Assembly: GCA_947650365.1 (NCBI GenBank) | Contig: CANTAL010000132.1 | Coordinates: 620,001 to 684,000 of the forward strand | DNA length: 64,000 nucleotides | Direction: 5' to 3' | From: Chamaelirium japonicum | Taxonomy: Eukaryota > Streptophyta > Magnoliopsida > Liliales > Melanthiaceae | Part shown: positions 1-62,246 of the stretch, one piece after another | How the letters are laid out: each line of letters starts with the position of its first letter | Position numbering within the stretch: position 1 is the first letter of the stretch | Position numbers and translations under genes: made by a program | The notes under the pieces: model-generated | Databases searched by the model: none | Told to the model about the DNA's origin: nothing | What the model saw: only the letters and a program-made list of their open reading frames with translations

Positions 1-1232
1 ATTCGTACGATCTATTCTAATTCATTCGCATGATCCATTCTAATTCATTCATACAATCCATTCTAATTCATTCATACGATCCATTCTAATTCATTCGCAC
101 GATCCATTCTAATTCATTTGTACGATCTATTCTAATTCATTCACACGATCCATTCTAATTCATTCATACGATCCATTCTAATTCATTCACACGATCCATT
201 CTAATTCATTCGTACGATCCTTTCTAATTCATTCGAACGAATGTATCCATTCTAATTCATTCGTACGATCTATTCTAATTCATTCGTACGATCCATTCTA
301 ATTCATTCATACGATCCATTCTAATTCATTCGTACGATCCACTCTAATTCATTCGCACGATCCATTCTAATTCATTCGTACGATACAATCTAATTCATTC
401 GTACGATCCATTCTAATTCATTCGTACGAACCATACAAATTCATTCGTAAGAATGTATTCATTCTAATTCATTCGTACGATCCATTCTAATTCAATCGTA
501 TGATCCATTCTAATTCATTCGTACGATCCATTCTAATTCATTCGCACGATCCAATCTAATTCATTCGTACGATCCATTCTTATTCATTCGTACGATCCAT
601 TCTAATTCATTCGCACGATCCATTCTAATTCATTCGCACGATCTATTCTAATTCATTCGCACGATCCATTCTAATTCATTCGCACGATCCATTCTAATTC
701 ATTTATACGATCCATTCTAATTCATTCATACAATCCATTCTAATTCTTTCGCACGAATGTATCCATTCTAATTCATTCGTACGATCTATTCTAATTCATT
801 CGCACGATCCATTCTAATTCATTCGTACGATCCATTCTAATTCATTCGCACGAATGTATCCATTCTAATTCATTTGTACGATCTATTCTAATTCATTCGT
901 ACGATCCATTCTAAGTCATTCGTACGATCCATTCTATTTCATTCGTACGATCCATTCTAGTTCATTCGTATGATCCATTCTATTTCATTCGTACGATCCA
1001 TTCTAACTCATTCGTACGATCCATTCTAATTCATTCGCACGAATGTATCCATTCTAATTCATTCGTACGACCCATTCTAATTCATTCGCACGATCCATTC
1101 TAATTTATTCGCACGAATGTATCCATTCTAATTCATTTGTACGATCTATTCTAATTCATTCGCACGATCCATTCTAATTCATTCATACAATTCATTCTAA
1201 TTCATTCGTACGATCCATTCTAATTCATTCGC
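1..1232 (+). repeat. Satellite block, F orientation
   Basis: Head-to-tail 23-bp units with 28-bp variants near 235, 753, 853, 1,041 and 1,113. The block belongs to the dispersed duplication shared with 28,777 onwards and probably continues left of the window. It ends at an inverted junction around 1,232, where ATTCATTCG is followed by CA and then CGAATGAAT. Confidence 0.93.
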
Positions 1233-1782
1233 ACGAATGAATTAGAATGGATCGTGCGAATGAATTACAATAGATCGTACGAATGAATTAGAATGGATCG
1301 TACGAATGAATTAGAATGGATCGTACGAATGAATTAGATTGTATCGTACGAATGAATTAGAATGGATCGTGCGAATGAATTAGAATGGATCGTACGAATG
1401 AATTAGAATGGATCATATGAATGAATTAGAATGGATCGTACGAATGAATTAGAATAGATCGTACGAATGAATTAGAATGGATACATTCGTGCGAATGAAT
1501 TACAATGGATCGTGCGAATGAATTAGAATGGATCATGCGAATGAATTAGAATGGATCGTACGAATGAATTAGATTGGATCGTGCGAATGAATTAGAATGG
1601 ATCGTACGAATGAATTAGAATCGATCGTACGACTGAATTAGAATAGATCGTACGAATGAATTAGAATGGATACATTCGTGCGAATGAATTAGAATGGATC
1701 GTACGAATGAATTAAATGAATTAGAATGGATCGTATGAATGAATTAGAATGGATCGTGCGAATGAATTAGAATGAATTATAA
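1233..1782 (-). repeat. Satellite block, R orientation
   Basis: Units read GAATGAATTAG then AATGGATCG on the plus strand, with a 28-bp variant (GGATACATTCGTGCG) near 1,479 and 1,669. The block ends in GAATGAATTATAATAG before a small F islet. Confidence 0.92.
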
Positions 1783-1851
1783 TAGATTCGCATGATCCAT
1801 TCTAATTCAAATTCATTCGCACGATCTAATCTAATTCGCACGATCCATTCT
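1783..1851 (+). repeat. Short F-orientation islet inside an R tract
   Basis: About 70 bp of F units with truncated, rearranged joints (ATTCAAATTCATTCG, ATCTAATCTAATTCG). The same islet with the same odd joints recurs at 30,467-30,530, so it predates the A/B duplication. Confidence 0.88.
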
Positions 1852-2639
1852 AGAATGGATCGTGCGAATGAATTAGATTGGATCATACGAATGAGTTAGA
1901 ATGGATCGTACGAATGAATTAGAATGGATCGTACGAATGAATTAGAATGGATCGTACGTATGAATTAGAATGGATCGTGCGAATGAATTAGAATGGATCG
2001 TACGAATGAGTTAGAATGGATCGTACAAATGAATTAGAATGGATCGTACGAATGAACTAGAATGGATCGTACGAATGAAATAGAATGGATCGTGCGAATG
2101 AATTAGATTGGATCGTGCGAATAAATTAGAATGGATAGTACGAATGAATTAGAATGGATACATTCATGCGAATGAATTAGAATTGATCGTACGAATGAAT
2201 TAGAATGGATCGTACGAATGAATTAGAATGGATCGTACGAATGAATTAGAATGGATCGTGCGAATGAATTAGAATAGATCGTACGAATGAATTAGAATGG
2301 ATACATTCGTGCGAATGAATTAGAATGGATCGTGCGAATGAATTAGAATGAATACATTCTTACGAATGAATTTGTATGGTTTGTATGAATGAATTAGAAT
2401 GGATTGTAAGACTGAATTAGAATTGATCATACGAATGAATTAGATTGTATCGTACGAATGAATTAGAATGGATCGTGCGAATGAATTAGAATGGTTCGTA
2501 CGAATGAATTAGAATCGATCGTATGAATGAATTAGAATGGATCGTGCGAAAGAATTAGAACAGATCGTACGAATGAATTAGAATGGATACATTTGTGCGA
2601 ATGAATTAGAATGGATCGTACGAATGAATTAGATTGTAC
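1852..2639 (-). repeat. Satellite block, R orientation
   Basis: Regular R units with 28-bp variants near 2,155 and 2,303. A divergent unit, AATGAATTTGTATGG followed by TTTGTATGAATG, lies near 2,365. Its relatives recur near 4,678 and 31,045. Confidence 0.92.
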
Positions 2640-2748
2640 AATTCATTCGCACGATCCATTCTAATTAGATCCATTCTAATTCATTCTTTGGCACGAATGA
2701 TCCATTCTAATCCAATCTAATTCATTCTAATTCAATCTATTTCATGAT
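2640..2748 (+). repeat. Scrambled F islet with CTTTGG insertion
   Basis: F-like satellite with truncated units and a rare CTTTGGCACGAATG joint near 2,685. It is duplicated at 31,365-31,473 and is a good landmark for tracing the A/B duplication. Confidence 0.85.
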
Positions 2749-18256: not shown

Positions 18257-18587
18257 TAATTCAATCTAATTCATTAGAATGGATCGTGCGAATGAATATA
18301 CACATTCTTACGAATGAATTCTAATTAGAATGGATCCATTCTAATACATCCGCACGAATGTATCCATTCTAATTCATTCGTACGATCTATTCTAATTCAT
18401 TCGTACGATCGATTCTAATTCATTCGTACGATCCATTCTAATTCATTCGCACGATCCAATCTAATTCATTCGTACGATCCATTCTAATTCATTCGCACGA
18501 TCCATTCTAATTCATTCGCACGAATGTATCCATTCTAATTCATTCGCACGATCCATTCTAATTCATTCTAATTCATTCATACGATCG
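18257..18587 (+). repeat. Mixed joint plus short F block
   Basis: A scrambled lead-in (TATAATTCAATCTAATTC, AATATACACATTCTTACG, TCTAATTAGAATGG) is followed by about 0.25 kb of F units. The same lead-in recurs near 19,683, 26,166 and 27,597. Confidence 0.87.
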
Positions 18588-18607
18588 TTAGAATCGATCG
18601 TATGAAT
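18575..18607. repeat. Inverted repeat at F/R switch
   Basis: ATTCATACGATCG and CGATCGTATGAAT form perfect 13-bp arms around the 7-nt spacer TTAGAAT. Equivalent structures lie near 20,004-20,036, 26,484-26,520 and 27,918-27,950. They are fixed parts of the ~1.43-kb unit. Confidence 0.88.
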
Positions 18608-19689
18608 AGAATGGATCGTTCGAATGAATTAGAATGGATCGTATGAATGAATTCGAATGGATCGTACGAATGAATTAGAATGGATACATTCGTGCGAATG
18701 AATTAGAATGGATCGTGCGAATGAATTAGAATGGATCGTACGAATGAATTAGAATGGATCATACGAATGAATTAGATTGTATCGTACGAATGAATTAGAA
18801 TGGATCGTGCAAATGAATTAGAATGGATCGTACGAATGATTTAGAATGGATCGTATGAATGAATTAGAATAGATCGTGCGAATGAATTAGAATGGATCGT
18901 ACGAATGAATTAGATTGGATCGTGCGAATGAATTAGAATGGATCGTACAAATGAATTATAATAGATTGTACGACTGAATTAGAATGGATCATATGAATGA
19001 AATAGAATGGATACATTCGTGCGAATGAATTAGAATGGATCGTACGAATGAATTAGAATAGATCGTGCGAATGAATTAGAATGGATCGTATGAATGAATT
19101 AGAATGGATCGTACGAATGAATTAGAATAGATTGTACGACTGAATTAGAATGGATCATATGAATGAATTAGATTGTATCGTAGGAATGAATTAGAATGGA
19201 TCGTGCGAATGAATTAGAATGGTTCATATGAATGAATTAGAATTGATCGTGCGAATGAATTAGAATGGATCGTGCGAATGAATTAGAATGGATCGTACGA
19301 ATGAATTAGAATGGATCGTACGAATGAATTAGAAAAGATCATACGAATGAATTAGATTGTATCGTACGAATAAATTAGAATGGATCGTACGAATGAATTA
19401 GAATGGATACATTCGTGCGAATGAATTAGAATGGATCGTACGAATGAGTAAGAATGGATCGTACGAATGAAATAGAATGGATCGTACAAATGAATTTGAA
19501 TGGATCGTGCGAATGAATTAGAATGGATCGTATGAATGAACTAGAATGGATCGTACGAATGAAGTAGAATGGATACATTCGTGCGAATGAATTAGAATGG
19601 ATCGTACGAATGAATTAGAATGATCGTACGAATGAACTAGAATGGATCGTACGAATGAATTAGAATAGATCGTATGAATGAATTATAAT
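18590..19689 (-). repeat. Satellite block, R orientation
   Basis: R part of the first ~1.43-kb alternating unit. Contains CGTAGGAATGAATTAG near 19,180 and closes with the GAGTAAG...GAAGTAG series and the 21-bp GG-less unit. Confidence 0.9.
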
Positions 19690-28463: not shown

Positions 28464-29911
28464 ATCTAATTCATTCGTATGATCCATTCTTATTCAGTCG
28501 TGTAATCCATTCTAATTCATTCGTACGATCCATTCTAATTCATTTGTACGATCTATTCTAATTCATTCGCACGATCCATTCTAATTCATTCATAAGATCC
28601 ATTCTAATTCATTCGTACGATCCATTCTAATTCATTCGCATGATCCATTCTAAGTCATTCGTATGATCCATTCTAATTCATTCGTACGATCCATTCTAAT
28701 TCATTCGCATGATCCATTCTAATTCACTCGTATGATCCATTCTAATTCATTCGCACGAATGTATCCATTCTAATTCATTCGTACGATCTATTCTAATTCA
28801 TTCGCATGATCCATTCTAATTCATTCATACAATCCATTCTAATTCATTCATACGATCCATTCTAATTCATTCGCACGATCCATTCTAATTCATTTGTACG
28901 ATCTATTCTAATTCATTCACACGATCCATTCTAATTCATTCATACGATCCATTCTAATTCATTCGCACGATCCATTCTAATTCATTCGTACGATCCTTTC
29001 TAATTCATTCGAACGAATGTATCCATTCTAATTCATTCGTACGATCTATTCTAATTCATTCGTACGATCCATTCTAATTCATTCATACGATCCATTCTAA
29101 TTCATTCGTACGATCCACTCTATTTCATTCGCACGATCCATTCTAATTCATTCGTACGATACAATCTAATTCATTCGTACGATCCATTCTAATTCATTCG
29201 TACGAACCATACAAATTCATTCGTAAGAATGTATTAATTCTAATTCATTCGTACGATCCATTCTAATTCAATCGTATGATCCATTCTAATTCATTCGTAC
29301 GATCTATTCTAATTCATTCGCACGATCCATTCTAATTCATTCGTACGATCCATTCTAATTCATTCGCACGATCCATTCTAATTCATTCATACGATCCATT
29401 CTAATTCATTCATACAATCCATTCTAATTCTTTCGCACGAGTGTATCCATTCTAATTCATTCGTACGATCTATTCTAATTCATTCGCACGATCCATTCTA
29501 ATTCATTCGTACGATCCATTCTAATTCATTCGCACGAATGTATCCATTCTAATTCATTTGTACGATCTATTCTAATTCATTCGTACGATCCATTCTAAGT
29601 CATTCGTACGATCCATTCTATTTCATTCGTACGATCCATTCTAGTTCATTCGTACGATCCATTCTATTTCATTCATACGATCCATTCTAACTCATTCGTA
29701 CGATCCATTCTAATTCATTCGCACGAATGTATCCATTCTAATTCATTCGTACGATCCATTCTAATTCATTCGCACGATCCATTCTAATTCATTCGTACGA
29801 TACAATCTAATTCATTCGTACGATCCATTCTAATTCATTCGTACGATCCATTCTAATTCATTCGTACGATCTATTGTAATTCATTCGCACGATCCATTCT
29901 AATTCATTCGC
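28464..29911 (+). repeat. Satellite block, F orientation
   Basis: Starts as the end of copy 2 of the 7.7-kb duplication. From 28,777 it is also duplication B, the partner of window position 1. It ends at the centre of the large palindrome. Confidence 0.92.
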
Positions 29912-30092
29912 ACGAATGAATTAGAATGGATCGTGCGAATGAATTACAATAGATCGTACGAATGAATTAGAATGGATCGTACGAATGAATTAGAATGGAT
30001 CGTACGAATGAATTAGATTGTATCGTACGAATGAATTAGAATGGATCGTGCGAATGAATTAGAATGGATCGTACGAATGAATTAGAATGGAT
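29731..30092. repeat. Perfect palindrome, 180-bp arms, 2-nt spacer
   Basis: The arms are 29,731-29,910 and 29,913-30,092, with spacer CA. I compared the reverse complement of the left arm with the right arm block by block and found no mismatch over 180 bp. The match includes rare variants such as TTACAATAG / CTATTGTAA and TTAGATTGTATCG / CGATACAATCTAA. It breaks where the left side enters a 28-bp variant. Confidence 0.95.
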
Positions 30093-30466
30093 CGTATGAA
30101 TGAATTAGAATGGATCGTACGAATGAATTAGAATAGATCGTACGAATGAATTAGAATGGATTCATTCGTGCGAATGAATTACAATGGATCGTGCGAATGA
30201 ATTAGAATGGATCATGCGAATGAATTAGAATGGATCGTACGAATGAATTAGATTGGATCGTGCGAATGAATTAGAATGGATCGTACGAATGAATTAGAAT
30301 CGATCGTACGACTGAATTAGAATAGATCGTACGAATGAATTAGAATGGATACATTCGTGCGAATGAATTAGAATGGATCGTACGAATGAATTAAATGAAT
30401 TAGAATGGATCATATGAATGAATTAGAATGGATCGTGCGAATGAATTAGAATGAATTATAATAGAT
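29912..30466 (-). repeat. Satellite block, R orientation
   Basis: Right arm of the palindrome and following R units. Counterpart of 1,233-1,782, including the truncated unit GAATTAAATGAATTAG near 30,388. Confidence 0.92.
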
Positions 30467-30530
30467 TCGCATGATCCATTCTAATTCAAATTCATTCGCA
30501 CGATCTAATCTAATTCGCACGATCCATTCT
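30467..30530 (+). repeat. Short F islet (copy of 1,783-1,851)
   Basis: Same truncated joints as in A (ATTCAAATTCATTCG, ATCTAATCTAATTCG). Confidence 0.87.
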
Positions 30531-31364
30531 AGAATGGATCGTGCGAATGAATTAGATTGGATCATACGAATGAGTTAGAATGGATCGTACGAATGAATTA
30601 GAATGGATCGTACGAATGAATTAGAATGGATCGTACGTATGAATTAGAATGGATCGTGCGAATGAATTAGAATGGATCGTACGAATGAGTTAGAATGGAT
30701 CGTACAAATGAATTAGAATGGATCGTACGAATGAACTAGAATGGATCGTACGAATGAAATAGAATGGATCGTGCGAATGAATTAGATTGGATCGTGCGAA
30801 TAAATTAGAATGGATAGTACGAATGAATTAGAATGGATACATTCATGCGAATGAATTAGAATTGATCGTACGAATGAATTAGAATGGATCGTACGAATGA
30901 ATTAGAATGGATCGTACGAATGAATTAGAATGGATCGTGCGAATGAATTAGAATAGATCGTACGAATGAATTAGAATGGATACATTCGTGCGAATGAATT
31001 AGAATGGATCGTGCGAATGAATTAGAATGAATACATTCTTACGAATGAATTTGTATGGTTTGTATGAATGAATTAGAATGGATTGTAAGACTGAATTAGA
31101 ATTGATCATACGAATGAATTAGATTGTATCGTACGAATGAATTAGAATGGATCGTGCGAATGACTTAGAATGGTTCGTACGAATGAATTAGAATCGATCG
31201 TATGAATGAATTAGAATGGATCGTGCGAAAGAATTAGAACAGATCGTACGAATGAATTAGAATGGATACATTTGTGCGAATGAATTAGAATGGATCGTAC
31301 GAATGAATTAGAATGGATCGTGCGAATGAATTAGAATGGATCGTACGAATGAATTAGATTGTAC
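30531..31364 (-). repeat. Satellite block, R orientation
   Basis: Counterpart of 1,852-2,639 with two additional R units at its right end, near 31,300-31,345. Confidence 0.9.
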
Positions 31365-31473
31365 AATTCATTCGCACGATCCATTCTAATTAGATCCATT
31401 CTAATTCATTCTTTGGCACGAATGATCCATTCTAATCCAATCTAATTCATTCTAATTCAATCTATTTCATGAT
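31365..31473 (+). repeat. Scrambled F islet (copy of 2,640-2,748)
   Basis: Contains the same CTTTGGCACGAATG joint, near 31,412. Confidence 0.85.
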
Positions 31474-53598: not shown

Positions 53599-54123
53599 CG
53601 ATCCATTCTAATTCATTCGTACGATACAATCTAATTCATTCGTACGATTCATTCATTCGTACGATCCATTCTATTTCATTCGTACGATCTATTCTAATTC
53701 ATTCATACGATCCATTCTAATTCATTCGCACGATCCAATCTAATTCATTCATACGATCCATTCTAATTCATTCGTATGATCCATTCTACTTCATTCACAC
53801 GATCCATTCTAATTCATTCGCACAATCCATTCTAATTCATTCGTACGATCCATTCTAATTCATTCGTACGATCCATTCTAATTCATTCGCACGAATGTAT
53901 CCATTCTAATTCATTCGTACGATCCATTCTAATTCATTCATACGATCCATTCTAATTCATTCGTACGATCCATTCTAATTCATTCGCACGATCCATTCTA
54001 ATTCATTCGTACGATACAATCTAATTCATTCGTACGATCCATTCTAATTCATTCGTATGATCCATTCTAATTCATTCGTACTATCCATTCTAATTCATTC
54101 ATACGATCCATTCTAATTCATTC
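53599..54123 (+). repeat. Satellite block, F orientation
   Basis: F tract ending at the inverted joint TAATTCATTCG, TG, CGAATGAATTA near 54,126. Confidence 0.9.
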
Positions 54124-57100
54124 GTGCGAATGAATTAGAATGGATCGTACGAATGAATTAGAATGGATACATTCGTGCGAATGAATTAGAATGGATCGCA
54201 CGAATGAGTAAGAATGAATCGTACGAATGAAATAGAATGGATCAAACAAATGAATTTGAATGGATCGTGCGAATGAATTAGAATGGATCGTACGAATGAA
54301 CTAGAATGGATCGTACGAATGAAATAGAATGGATCGTACGAATGACTTAGAATGGATCGTACAAATGAATTAGAATAGATCGTACGAATGAATTAGAATG
54401 GATACATTCGTGCGAATGAATTAGAATGGATCGTACGAATGAATTAGAATGGATCGTGCGAATGAGTTAGAATAGATCGTACGAATGAATTAGAATAGAT
54501 ACATTCGTGCGAAAGAATTAGAATGGATTGTATGAATGAATTAGAATGGATCGTATGAATGAATTACAATGGATCGTGCGAATGAATTAGAATGGATCGT
54601 GCGAATGAATTAGAATGGATACATTCGTGCGAATGAATTAGAATGAATCGTACGAATGAGTAAGAATGGATCATACAAATGAATTAGAATGGATCGTGTG
54701 GATGAATTAGAATGGATCGTATGAATGAATTAGAATGGATACATTCGTGTGAATGAATTAGAATGGATCGTACGAATGAATTAGATTGTATCGTACGAAT
54801 GAATTAGAATGGATCGTACGAATGAATTAGATTGTATCGTACGAATGAATTAGAATGGATCGTGCGAATGAATTAGAATGGATCATACGAATGAATTAGA
54901 TTGTATCGTGCGAATGAATTAGAATGGATCATACGAATGAATTAGATTGTATCGTGCGAATGAATTAGAATGAATCATACGAATGAATTAGATTGTATCG
55001 TACGAATGAATTAGAATGGATCGTACGAATGAATTAGAATGGATCGTACAAATGAATTAGAATGGATCGTATGAATGAATTAGAATACATCGTACGAATG
55101 AATTAGAATGGATACATTCGTGCGAATGAATAAAAATGGATCGTACGAATGAATTAGAATGGATCGTACGAATGAATTAGAATGGATCGTATTAATGAAT
55201 TAGAATAGATCATGCGAATGAATTAGAATAGATCGTACGAATGAATTAGAATGGATAGATTCATGCGAATGAATTAGAATGTATCGTACGAATGAATTAG
55301 AATGGATCGTACGAATGAATTAGATTGTATCGTACGAATGAATTAGAATGGATCGTGCGAATGAATTAGAATGGATCATACGAATGAATTAGATTGTATC
55401 GTGCGAATGAATTAGAATGGATCATACAAATGAATTAGATTGTATCGTGCGAATGAATTAGAATGGATCATACGAATGAATTAGATTGTATCGTACGAAT
55501 GAATTAGAATTGATGTTACAAATGAATTAGAATGGATCGTACGAATGAATTAGAATGGATCGTATGAATGAATTAGAATACATCGTACGAATGAATTAGA
55601 ATGGATACATTCGTGCGAATGAATTAGAATGGATCATACGAATGAATTAGAATGGATCGTGCGAATGAATTAGAATGGATCGTACGAATGAATTAGAATG
55701 GATCATACGAATGAATTAGATTGTATCGTACGAATGAATTAGAATGGATCGTGCGAATGAATTAGAATGGATCGTATAAATGAATTAGAATGGATCATAC
55801 GAATGAATTAGATTGTATCGTACGAATGAATTAGAATGGATCGTACGAATGAATTAGAATGGATACATTCGTGCGAATGAATTAGAATGGATCGTACGAA
55901 TGAGTAAGAATGGATCGTACGAATGAAATAGAATGGATCGTATGAATGAATTTGAATGGATCGTGCGAATGAATTAGAATGGATCGTATGAATGAACTAG
56001 AATGGATCGTACGAATGAAGTAGAATGGATACATTCGTGCGAATGAATTAGAATGGATCGTACGAATGAATTAGAATGATCGTACGAATGAACTAGAATG
56101 GATCGTACGAACGAATTAGAATAGATCGTACGAATGAATTAGAATGGATACATTTATGCGAATGAATTAGAATCGATCGTACGAATGAATTAGAATGGAT
56201 TGTGCGAATGAATTAAATTGGATCGTGCGAATGAATTAGAATGGATCGTACGAATGAATTAGAATCGATCGTACGACTGAATTAGAATAGATCATACGAA
56301 TGAATTAGAATGGATACATTCGTACGAATGAATTAGAATGGATCGTACGAATGAATTAGAATGGATCGTGCGAATGAATTAGAATGGATCATATGAATGA
56401 ATTAGAATTGATCGTGCGAATGAATTAGAATGGATCGTGCGAATGAATTAGAATGGATCGTACGAATGAATTAGAATGGATTGTACGACTGAATTAGAAT
56501 GGATCATACGAATGAATTAGATTGTATCGTACGAATGAATTAGAATGGATCATACGATTGAATTAGAATGGATCATACGAATGTATTAGAATTGATCGTA
56601 CGAATGAATTAGAATGGATCGTACGAATGAATTAGAATGGATCGTACGAATGAATTAGAATGGATCGTACGAATGAATTAGAATAGATCGTATGAATGAA
56701 TTAGAATAGATCGTACGAATGAATGGATCGTACGAATGAATTAGATTGTATCGTACGAATGAATTAGAATGGATCGTGCGAATGAATTAGAATGGATCGT
56801 ACGAATGAATTAGAATGGATTGTACGACTGAATTAGAATGGATCATACGAATCAATTAGATTATATCGTACAAATGAATTAGAATGGATCGTGCGAATGA
56901 ATTAGAATGGATAGTACGAATGAATTAGAAAGGATCGTACGAATGAATTAAAATGGATCGTACGAATGAATTAGATTGTATCGTACGAATGAATTAGAAT
57001 GGATCGTGCGAATGAATTTGAATGGATCGTACGAATGAATTAGAATGGATCGTACCAATGAATTAGATTGTATCGTTAGAATGAATTAGAATGGATCATG

Positions 57101-61610: not shown

Positions 61611-62002
61611 CGATCCATTCTAATTCATTCGCACGATCCATTCTAATTCATTCATACGATACAATCTAATTCATTCGTGCGATCCATTCTAATTCATTCA
61701 TACGATCCATTCTAATTCATTCGTACTATCCATTCTAATTCATTCGCACGATCCATTCTAATTCATTCGTACGATACAATCTAATTCATTCGTATGATCC
61801 ATTCTAATTCAGTCGTACAATCCATTCTAATTCATTCGTACGATCCATTCTAATTCATTCGCACGATCCATTCTAATTCATTCGCACGATCAATTCTAAT
61901 TCATTCATATGATCCATTCGAATTCGTTCGCACGATCCATTCTAATTCATTCGTACGATCCATTCTAATTCATTCGCACGAATGTATCCATTCTAATTCA
62001 TT
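61598..62002 (+). repeat. Satellite block, F orientation
   Basis: F tract broken off at CATTCCACGACTGAATTAG, an abrupt joint to R. Confidence 0.89.
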
Positions 62003-62246
62003 CCACGACTGAATTAGAATGGATCATACGAATGAATTAGATTGTATCGTACGAATGAATTAGAATGGATCGTGCGAATGAATTAGAATGGATCGTATGA
62101 ATGAATTAGAATGGATCGTGCGAATGAATTAGAATAGATCGTACGAATGAATTAGAATGGATACATTCCTGCGAATGAATTAGAATGGATCGTACGAATG
62201 AATTAGAATGGATACATTCGTGCGAATGAATTACAATGGATCGTGC
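62003..62246 (-). repeat. Satellite block, R orientation
   Basis: R tract parallel to 12,118-12,374 (same order, same exit GTGCGAATGTATCC, then CTACTTCATTCG). It marks another dispersed duplication. Confidence 0.88.

Follow-up and report, generated by a model that had tools for sequence, protein, structure and literature searches.

A derived perfect palindrome in a centromere-type satellite array, probably formed by quasipalindrome correction

Locus B of a centromere-type satellite array carries a perfect palindrome of 362 bases, in which two 180-bp arms are identical as reverse complements at 180 of 180 positions around the dinucleotide CA. On the sequence comparisons presented here, one arm of this palindrome has been overwritten from the other, and the derived state is well polarised. 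Events of this kind are known; the present one stands out by its instructive setting and its unusual length. Comparison with nine related copies shows that the left arm of B has changed and the right arm has not, and that the changed tract is contiguous and matches the mirror register. The overwriting was probably a quasipalindrome correction, during which a nascent strand would have folded back on the right arm.

The satellite array and the duplicated locus

The window, by which we mean the whole 64-kb stretch of DNA analysed (G000:C144:620,001-684,000), consists entirely of a 23-bp satellite with interspersed 28-bp units, and our own segmentation divides it into 67 forward and reverse stretches. 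Genome-wide pattern searches covered 1,518,659,071 bases of a plant genome, recognised as such by 28 matches to the chlorophyll-binding family (best 1.8e-48). The 23-bp and 28-bp units of the window are a 5-bp deletion and one substitution apart. The same relation is described in the available part of PMC10264360 for Chio1 (23 bp) and Chio2 (28 bp), the monomers of the centromeric satellite of Chionographis japonica, which occur in mixed forward and reverse orientations and contain dyad symmetries; CENH3 occupancy is reported there for Chio arrays in general. In addition, the 9-mer TTCGTACGA, published in the accessible source as common to the 23-bp Chio monomer, is present in the 23-bp consensus of the window. 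This comparison sets the units of the window against the published description and the 9-mer, and from it we infer that the window is a centromere-type Chio1/Chio2 array. Six pieces of the monomer gave no match in the open-access papers searched, and there was no match to Rfam at the gathering threshold in the window and seven flanking loci.

Higher-order duplications are apparent in the window as many exact 40-bp matches at offsets of 4070, 7734, 7892, 7915, 1429 and 28679. The duplication that links B to its sister locus A is one of these. The features of both duplicates are as follows.

1..2700, + strand: duplicate A, the paralogue of 28777-31425; the flanks of the two differ by 13 substitutions over 2,241 bases and by two indels
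1047..1231, + strand: left arm of A, in the ancestral non-palindromic state according to the alignment
1103..1130, + strand: 28-bp unit in the left arm of A where B has a 23-bp unit (from the alignment; boundaries by eye)
1234..1413, + strand: right arm of A, identical to the right arm of B over 180 bp
28777..31425, + strand: duplicate B, bearer of the palindrome, aligned to 1-2700
29713..29740, + strand: 28-bp unit across the outer end of the palindrome, keeping the extra AATGT at 29726-29730 (boundaries by eye)
29731..29910, + strand: left arm of B, the putative overwritten recipient; exact reverse complement of 29913-30092 and different from nine of the nine other exact copies
29787..29809, + strand: 23-bp (Chio1-like) unit replacing the 28-bp (Chio2-like) unit of the other copies (from alignments; boundaries by eye)
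29790..29888, + strand: core of the converted tract, set apart from all nine copies by nine substitutions and a 5-bp deletion, and from eight of them by one more substitution, at 29790
29911..29912, no strand: uninverted spacer, which reads CA in each of the ten copies
29913..30092, + strand: right arm of B, the putative template; identical to the right arm of A over 180 bp

Geometry of the palindrome

The symmetry of B ends at once beyond 29,731 and 30,092. In a scan of 359,076 bases which allowed spacers of up to about 200 bp, the next longest exact inverted arm measured 111 bp, with a 59-bp spacer. A 39-bp sequence at the centre of B also marks other forward/reverse junctions and occurs 5,539 times genome-wide at one mismatch or fewer. 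Among 42 loci sharing this centre, all junctions except B have exact arms of 16-42 bp; 30 of the 42 come from C1 and C2 and were the first ones returned by the search, and this subset is not a random one.

The two states are also predicted to fold differently. An A-like strand would form essentially one long imperfect hairpin (-162.2 kcal/mol), whereas B would form a perfect one (-217.5 kcal/mol), more stable by about 55 kcal/mol.

The left arm of B is derived

The left arms of A and B are distinguished by 14 substitutions and a 5-bp indel, whereas their right arms show no differences. Outside the arms, the 13 substitutions and two indels in 2,241 bases amount to a divergence of 0.58%. At this divergence 0.57 changes are expected in 99 bp, and the probability of at least ten is about 4e-10. 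A chance origin of the palindrome is rejected on the strength of the exact 180-bp arms, the scan, the comparison of junctions and the divergence between A and B.

A 73-bp probe, comprising the centre and the inner right arm, is found without mismatch at ten places genome-wide. Besides A and B, C144 holds two of them, C8 four, and C90 and C125 one each. All nine exact copies besides B were read. In each of them the centre is CA, the inner arms pair exactly over 22 bp, and the left arm is of essentially one old, non-palindromic form; the gapped identity between arms is 91.4-94.3%. Since nine of nine other exact copies, on C8, C90, C125 and C144, are A-like, the left arm of B is derived. At one mismatch the probe finds nine further places, and the old left arm adjoins six of them by pattern match. 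The old left arm is present in 15 of the 18 other near-identical copies; the remaining three (two on C4, one on C198) are not among the 100 matches listed out of 150. No mirrored partner besides B was found among the matches listed genome-wide for the probe, the core and the 180-bp arm.

Nine substitutions, located 23, 35, 39, 47, 69, 85, 106, 109 and 115 bp from the centre, distinguish B from all nine copies, as does the 5-bp indel 111 bp from the centre; at 85 bp the copy L054 has a third base. A further substitution at 121 bp separates B from eight copies, the more divergent copy L052 having the base of B (C at 29,790). At every distinguishing site B shows the mirror of its right arm, and the sites are contiguous, from 23 to 121 bp from the centre. 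The innermost mismatch of the old copies lies at the same 23 bp. The core of the tract thus extends from 29,790 to 29,888 (99 bp) relative to A, or from 29,796 to 29,888 (93 bp) when the site shared with L052 is set aside. The T at 29,755 is mirrored in B but is also found in L045, L047 and L052, and therefore does not extend the tract to that position. The outer limit is placed at 29,731 because the unconverted AATGT of the 28-bp unit survives just outside it. On these limits the converted tract would be about 93-180 bp long, and its inner end may run into the 22-bp identical stem.

Changes in the right arm are few. The right arms of the nine copies show 0-4 differences from that of B over 212 sites, and one C8 copy is identical to it over this whole length. 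No right-arm difference is common to all nine, which indicates that the template arm was left unchanged.

Several claims of the original prediction can be assessed at this point. The exact reverse-complement arms around CA at B are as it described, and so is the right arm that A has in common with B. Its statement that A pairs well only near the centre holds for exact pairing, which is limited to 22 bp, but is too strong overall, since the two arms of A are 92.6% identical over 175 aligned bases. The differing units had been placed at about 29,780-29,890; sites that differ from A run from 29,755 to 29,888, and the interval is now refined to the 99-bp or 93-bp core. Lastly, it had named outgroup copies as the check on an ancestral palindrome, and the nine read here speak for B as the derived state.

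The template

Of the inverted registers in the window, 1,033 agree with the core at 65 or more of its 99 positions. Two of these are exact, namely the right arm of B itself in mirror position and that of A. Direct registers matching the core number 1,257, and the only exact one is B itself. Genome-wide, the 99-bp core occurs exactly at 35 places, 33 of which are outside B, and the entire 180-bp arm at four: the right arms of A, of B and of a copy at C8:12,057,799, and the left arm of B. The exact mirror register suggests that the donor was the right arm of B or that of its sister chromatid. No private variant of the right arm of B is mirrored in the left arm within the 180 bp; the arm has no donor-diagnostic private variant because the right arm of A is identical to it, and the donor-variant comparison found the same 180-bp identity for the C8:12,057,799 copy.

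With up to two mismatches allowed, the 99-bp core is also found in inverted pairs exactly 1,443 bp apart on C8, for example at 27517083(+)/27518526(-), 13131647(+)/13133090(-) and 13989281(+)/13990724(-). These pairs apparently represent another amplified inverted unit.

Origin of the palindrome

Quasipalindrome correction would proceed from an imperfect palindrome which B inherited at a strand-switch junction of the satellite, with 22-bp exact inner arms around CA and about 93% similarity further out. Once the lineage of B had separated from that of A, the right arm would have been copied over about 93-180 bp of the left arm, a single event being the simplest case. A strand complementary to the + strand of the window would have copied the right arm and the centre, after which its 3' end would fold back via the inner stem and synthesise the left arm from its own right-arm copy. 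The nascent strand would then rejoin its normal template somewhere between 29,731 and 29,796. The loss of five bases, which turns a 28-bp unit into a 23-bp unit, and the more stable predicted hairpin would be side effects. Such a fold-back switch predicts a contiguous tract that extends outward from the inner stem, an unchanged template arm and a spacer that is not flipped, and all three are observed; the non-inverted spacer fits a switch made after the centre had been copied. The conversion of quasipalindromes to palindromes by template switching is reportedly the subject of the Ripley model (Ripley, 1982).

As an outcome, the overwriting of the left arm by a right-arm copy had been foreseen in the original prediction, and nine of nine other copies keep the old left arm. 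Quasipalindrome-to-palindrome correction by template switching, the switch being one of the alternatives that it offered, is the more specific known name for this outcome. The repair of a hairpin or a break, which it also mentioned, retains some probability. Here, the arms of a single molecule, or of two sister chromatids, would mispair in a hairpin or cruciform, and the heteroduplex would be repaired from the right arm. We consider this route unlikely, though credible enough to be kept in mind. The products would be the same (a contiguous tract, the mirror register, an intact right arm), and the sequence therefore does not separate it, or the copying of the right arm of a sister chromatid, from a fold-back switch; furthermore, an A-like locus is predicted to fold into the long imperfect hairpin that it requires, and about 93-180 bp is a comfortable length for repair or conversion. 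Mismatch repair of a hairpin gives no stated reason for favouring one arm at every site unless a single nick directs it, whereas a template switch yields a single-direction tract directly. Neither the bias nor the direction is decisive. The length of the tract also weighs against a fold-back switch, being near or beyond the top of the template-switch range in the accessible part of PMC7954356.

The remaining explanations are less probable. In ectopic conversion, the right arm of another copy, such as A (28.7 kb away) or C8:12,057,799, would have served, in inverted orientation, as donor to the left arm of B. These two right arms match all 180 bp and are donors as exact as the right arm of B, which is a point against the fold-back switch, as are the 33 exact occurrences of the core outside B; clusters of differences between paralogues also suggest that exchange is common in such arrays. 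The donor would have had to hit the exact mirror register of the centre of B among many, and just two of the 1,033 in-window registers fit, while the right arm of B is only 2 bp away. We therefore hold ectopic conversion to be improbable. A sequencing or assembly artefact, arising from a foldback read or a consensus error, is more improbable still. Palindromes are classic sites of artefacts, the 858-kb contig that contains the locus is mostly repeat where it was read, and our view of B rests on assembly sequence. A foldback read would not regain the correct left flank, yet B is A-like beyond 29,730, and nothing of the kind is seen in the nine related loci that were read. The available part of PMC10264360 describes an assembly of Chionographis japonica from 58.5x PacBio HiFi data with hifiasm, from libraries of 14-26 kb, and makes no mention of polishing; a 362-bp palindrome would sit well inside such reads, and these methods make a consensus artefact less likely. 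Finally, we give hardly any credence to an ancestral palindrome that was lost in the other copies. A newborn foldback junction would indeed be perfect, but nine copies on four scaffolds would all have to share one altered left arm, nine or ten substitutions and a 5-bp insertion included, while their right arms stayed nearly unchanged. A single event would suffice if all nine descend from one altered copy, but A is a near neighbour of B, with a flank divergence of 0.58%.

Rarity of mirrored tracts

The survey of difference clusters between paralogues took in the stretches of contig C144 that were read and those C1 and C2 loci that came first in the search. A cluster was scored when its entire segment had an exact inverted counterpart within 800 bp, a test which misses older, diverged events. 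Clusters with at least seven substitutions numbered 209, in 301 bins of 60 bp, and a single bin, that of B, had an exact inverted copy nearby. At a threshold of at least five substitutions there were 299 clusters in 440 bins, and three bins including B had such a copy. The 305 paralogue alignments were counted under length limits slightly different from those of the run that gave the 209 clusters. As almost all difference clusters lack a local inverted template, other exchange would be the commoner process, and mirror copying of the length seen at B looks rare beside other exchange or divergence. The other two clusters with an inverted copy, at G000:C144:774187-774225 (39 bp) and 752286-752318 (33 bp), have six substitutions each and are candidates for small template switches.

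Six presumed pairs of sister junctions, chosen by coordinates and composition and spanning 641-649 aligned columns, contained no mirrored cluster like that of B. The left arms of L004 and L012 differ in a cluster that lies 186-297 bp from the centre and is of mixed mirror status. In the pair L003/L011 (around position 1517), two left-arm differences lie 21 and 24 bp from the centre; both are mirrored in L011, which has an exact arm of 42 against 20 in L003. This is a possible tiny version of the event at B, too little to call.

Relation to known systems

The passage from a near-perfect to a perfect inverted repeat is given as characteristic of template switching in the available parts of PMC7954356, PMC8604942 and PMC3820800. 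As in the quasipalindrome corrections of yeast and great apes, the change at B affects many sites at once, uses one arm as template, starts from a pre-paired inner stem and leaves the flanks untouched. In contrast to these cases, it lies in a centromere-type satellite and comprises ten or eleven sites in a tract of about 93-180 bp, which is an upper-range length for a correction of this type. As far as the accessible text of each source goes, template-switch fragments in great apes have a median of 12 and a maximum of 128 (PMC7954356), the perfect repeats of yeast reporters measure 5-9 bp (PMC3820800) and the arms in natural yeast genes 7-16 bp (PMC8604942).

A second parallel is provided by perfect inverted repeats in the coding DNA of Nematomorpha mitochondria, with arms of up to 142 bp, for which the available part of PMC6649704 names template switching as a possible origin. 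No single event is polarised in the portion of that source at hand, whereas nine copies record the ancestral state of B. The same source mentions arm-to-arm gene conversion of long palindromes. The palindromes of the human X and Y chromosomes, like B, keep their inverted arms identical by the copying of arm onto arm. Those palindromes have kilobase to megabase arms, longer spacers and recurrent conversion, in contrast to the 180-bp arms, the 2-bp spacer and the one event seen at B.

Unequal exchange and conversion are generally credited with homogenising satellite arrays, and to our knowledge single homogenisation events are rarely polarised. For one event in a centromere-type array, the nine outgroup copies of B show from what state it started, which way it went and what its template probably was. 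For the spread of the Chio arrays, gene conversion is suggested in the available part of PMC10264360, in which no individual conversion event or junction is traced. No comparable template-switch or conversion event in a satellite was found among the titles and abstract openings of the open-access literature searched. The event at B indicates that satellite units of opposite orientation can serve each other as templates, so that forward and reverse arrays could homogenise together, and mirror templating would let a 28-bp unit become a 23-bp unit. Since mirror events are, by our counts, rare next to other clusters of differences, B is to be seen as a clear example rather than as a demonstrated driver.

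Strand-switch junctions in the array

It is conceivable, though we find it doubtful, that the strand-switch junctions of this holocentromere satellite act in general as engines of hairpin-templated copying, with B as a freshly caught event. Nascent strands would then fold at the dyad of the monomer, rewrite arms and convert 28-bp into 23-bp units, and in an extreme form the process would create the forward/reverse junctions themselves. The mixing of orientations and the homogenisation of the centromere array would in that case be one mechanism of replication error. Some forward-to-reverse junctions reuse the register CATTCG-NN-CGAATG, for instance those with centres at 1232, 17162, 25054, 29911 and 54125. 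The 28-bp unit itself contains CATTCGCACGAATG and could thereby seed fold-backs. As the sole seed of forward-to-reverse junctions, the dyad CATTCG-CA-CGAATG of this unit finds no support in that form: in a count that covered the CA and TA registers, the TA form of the 26-bp junction core outnumbers the CA form genome-wide (4,185 against 2,661 places).

Exact inverted arms of 71-89 bp with spacers of 120-188 bp are found at positions 61728-62093, 18460-18753 and 53869-54198 of the window. Equal lengths of arm and spacer (87/120 and 89/188) recur in the flanking loci.

Around the window, GC-rich blocks break the satellite at G000:C144:544001-551500, 557501-583000 and 730001-743500 (parts of the loci L033-L037 and L045-L046), with GC contents of 0.586 in L035, 0.589 in L036 and 0.574 in L046. 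The second of these blocks has reading frames with gag, reverse transcriptase, RNase H and integrase domains, a set which we take to be Ty3/gypsy-like.
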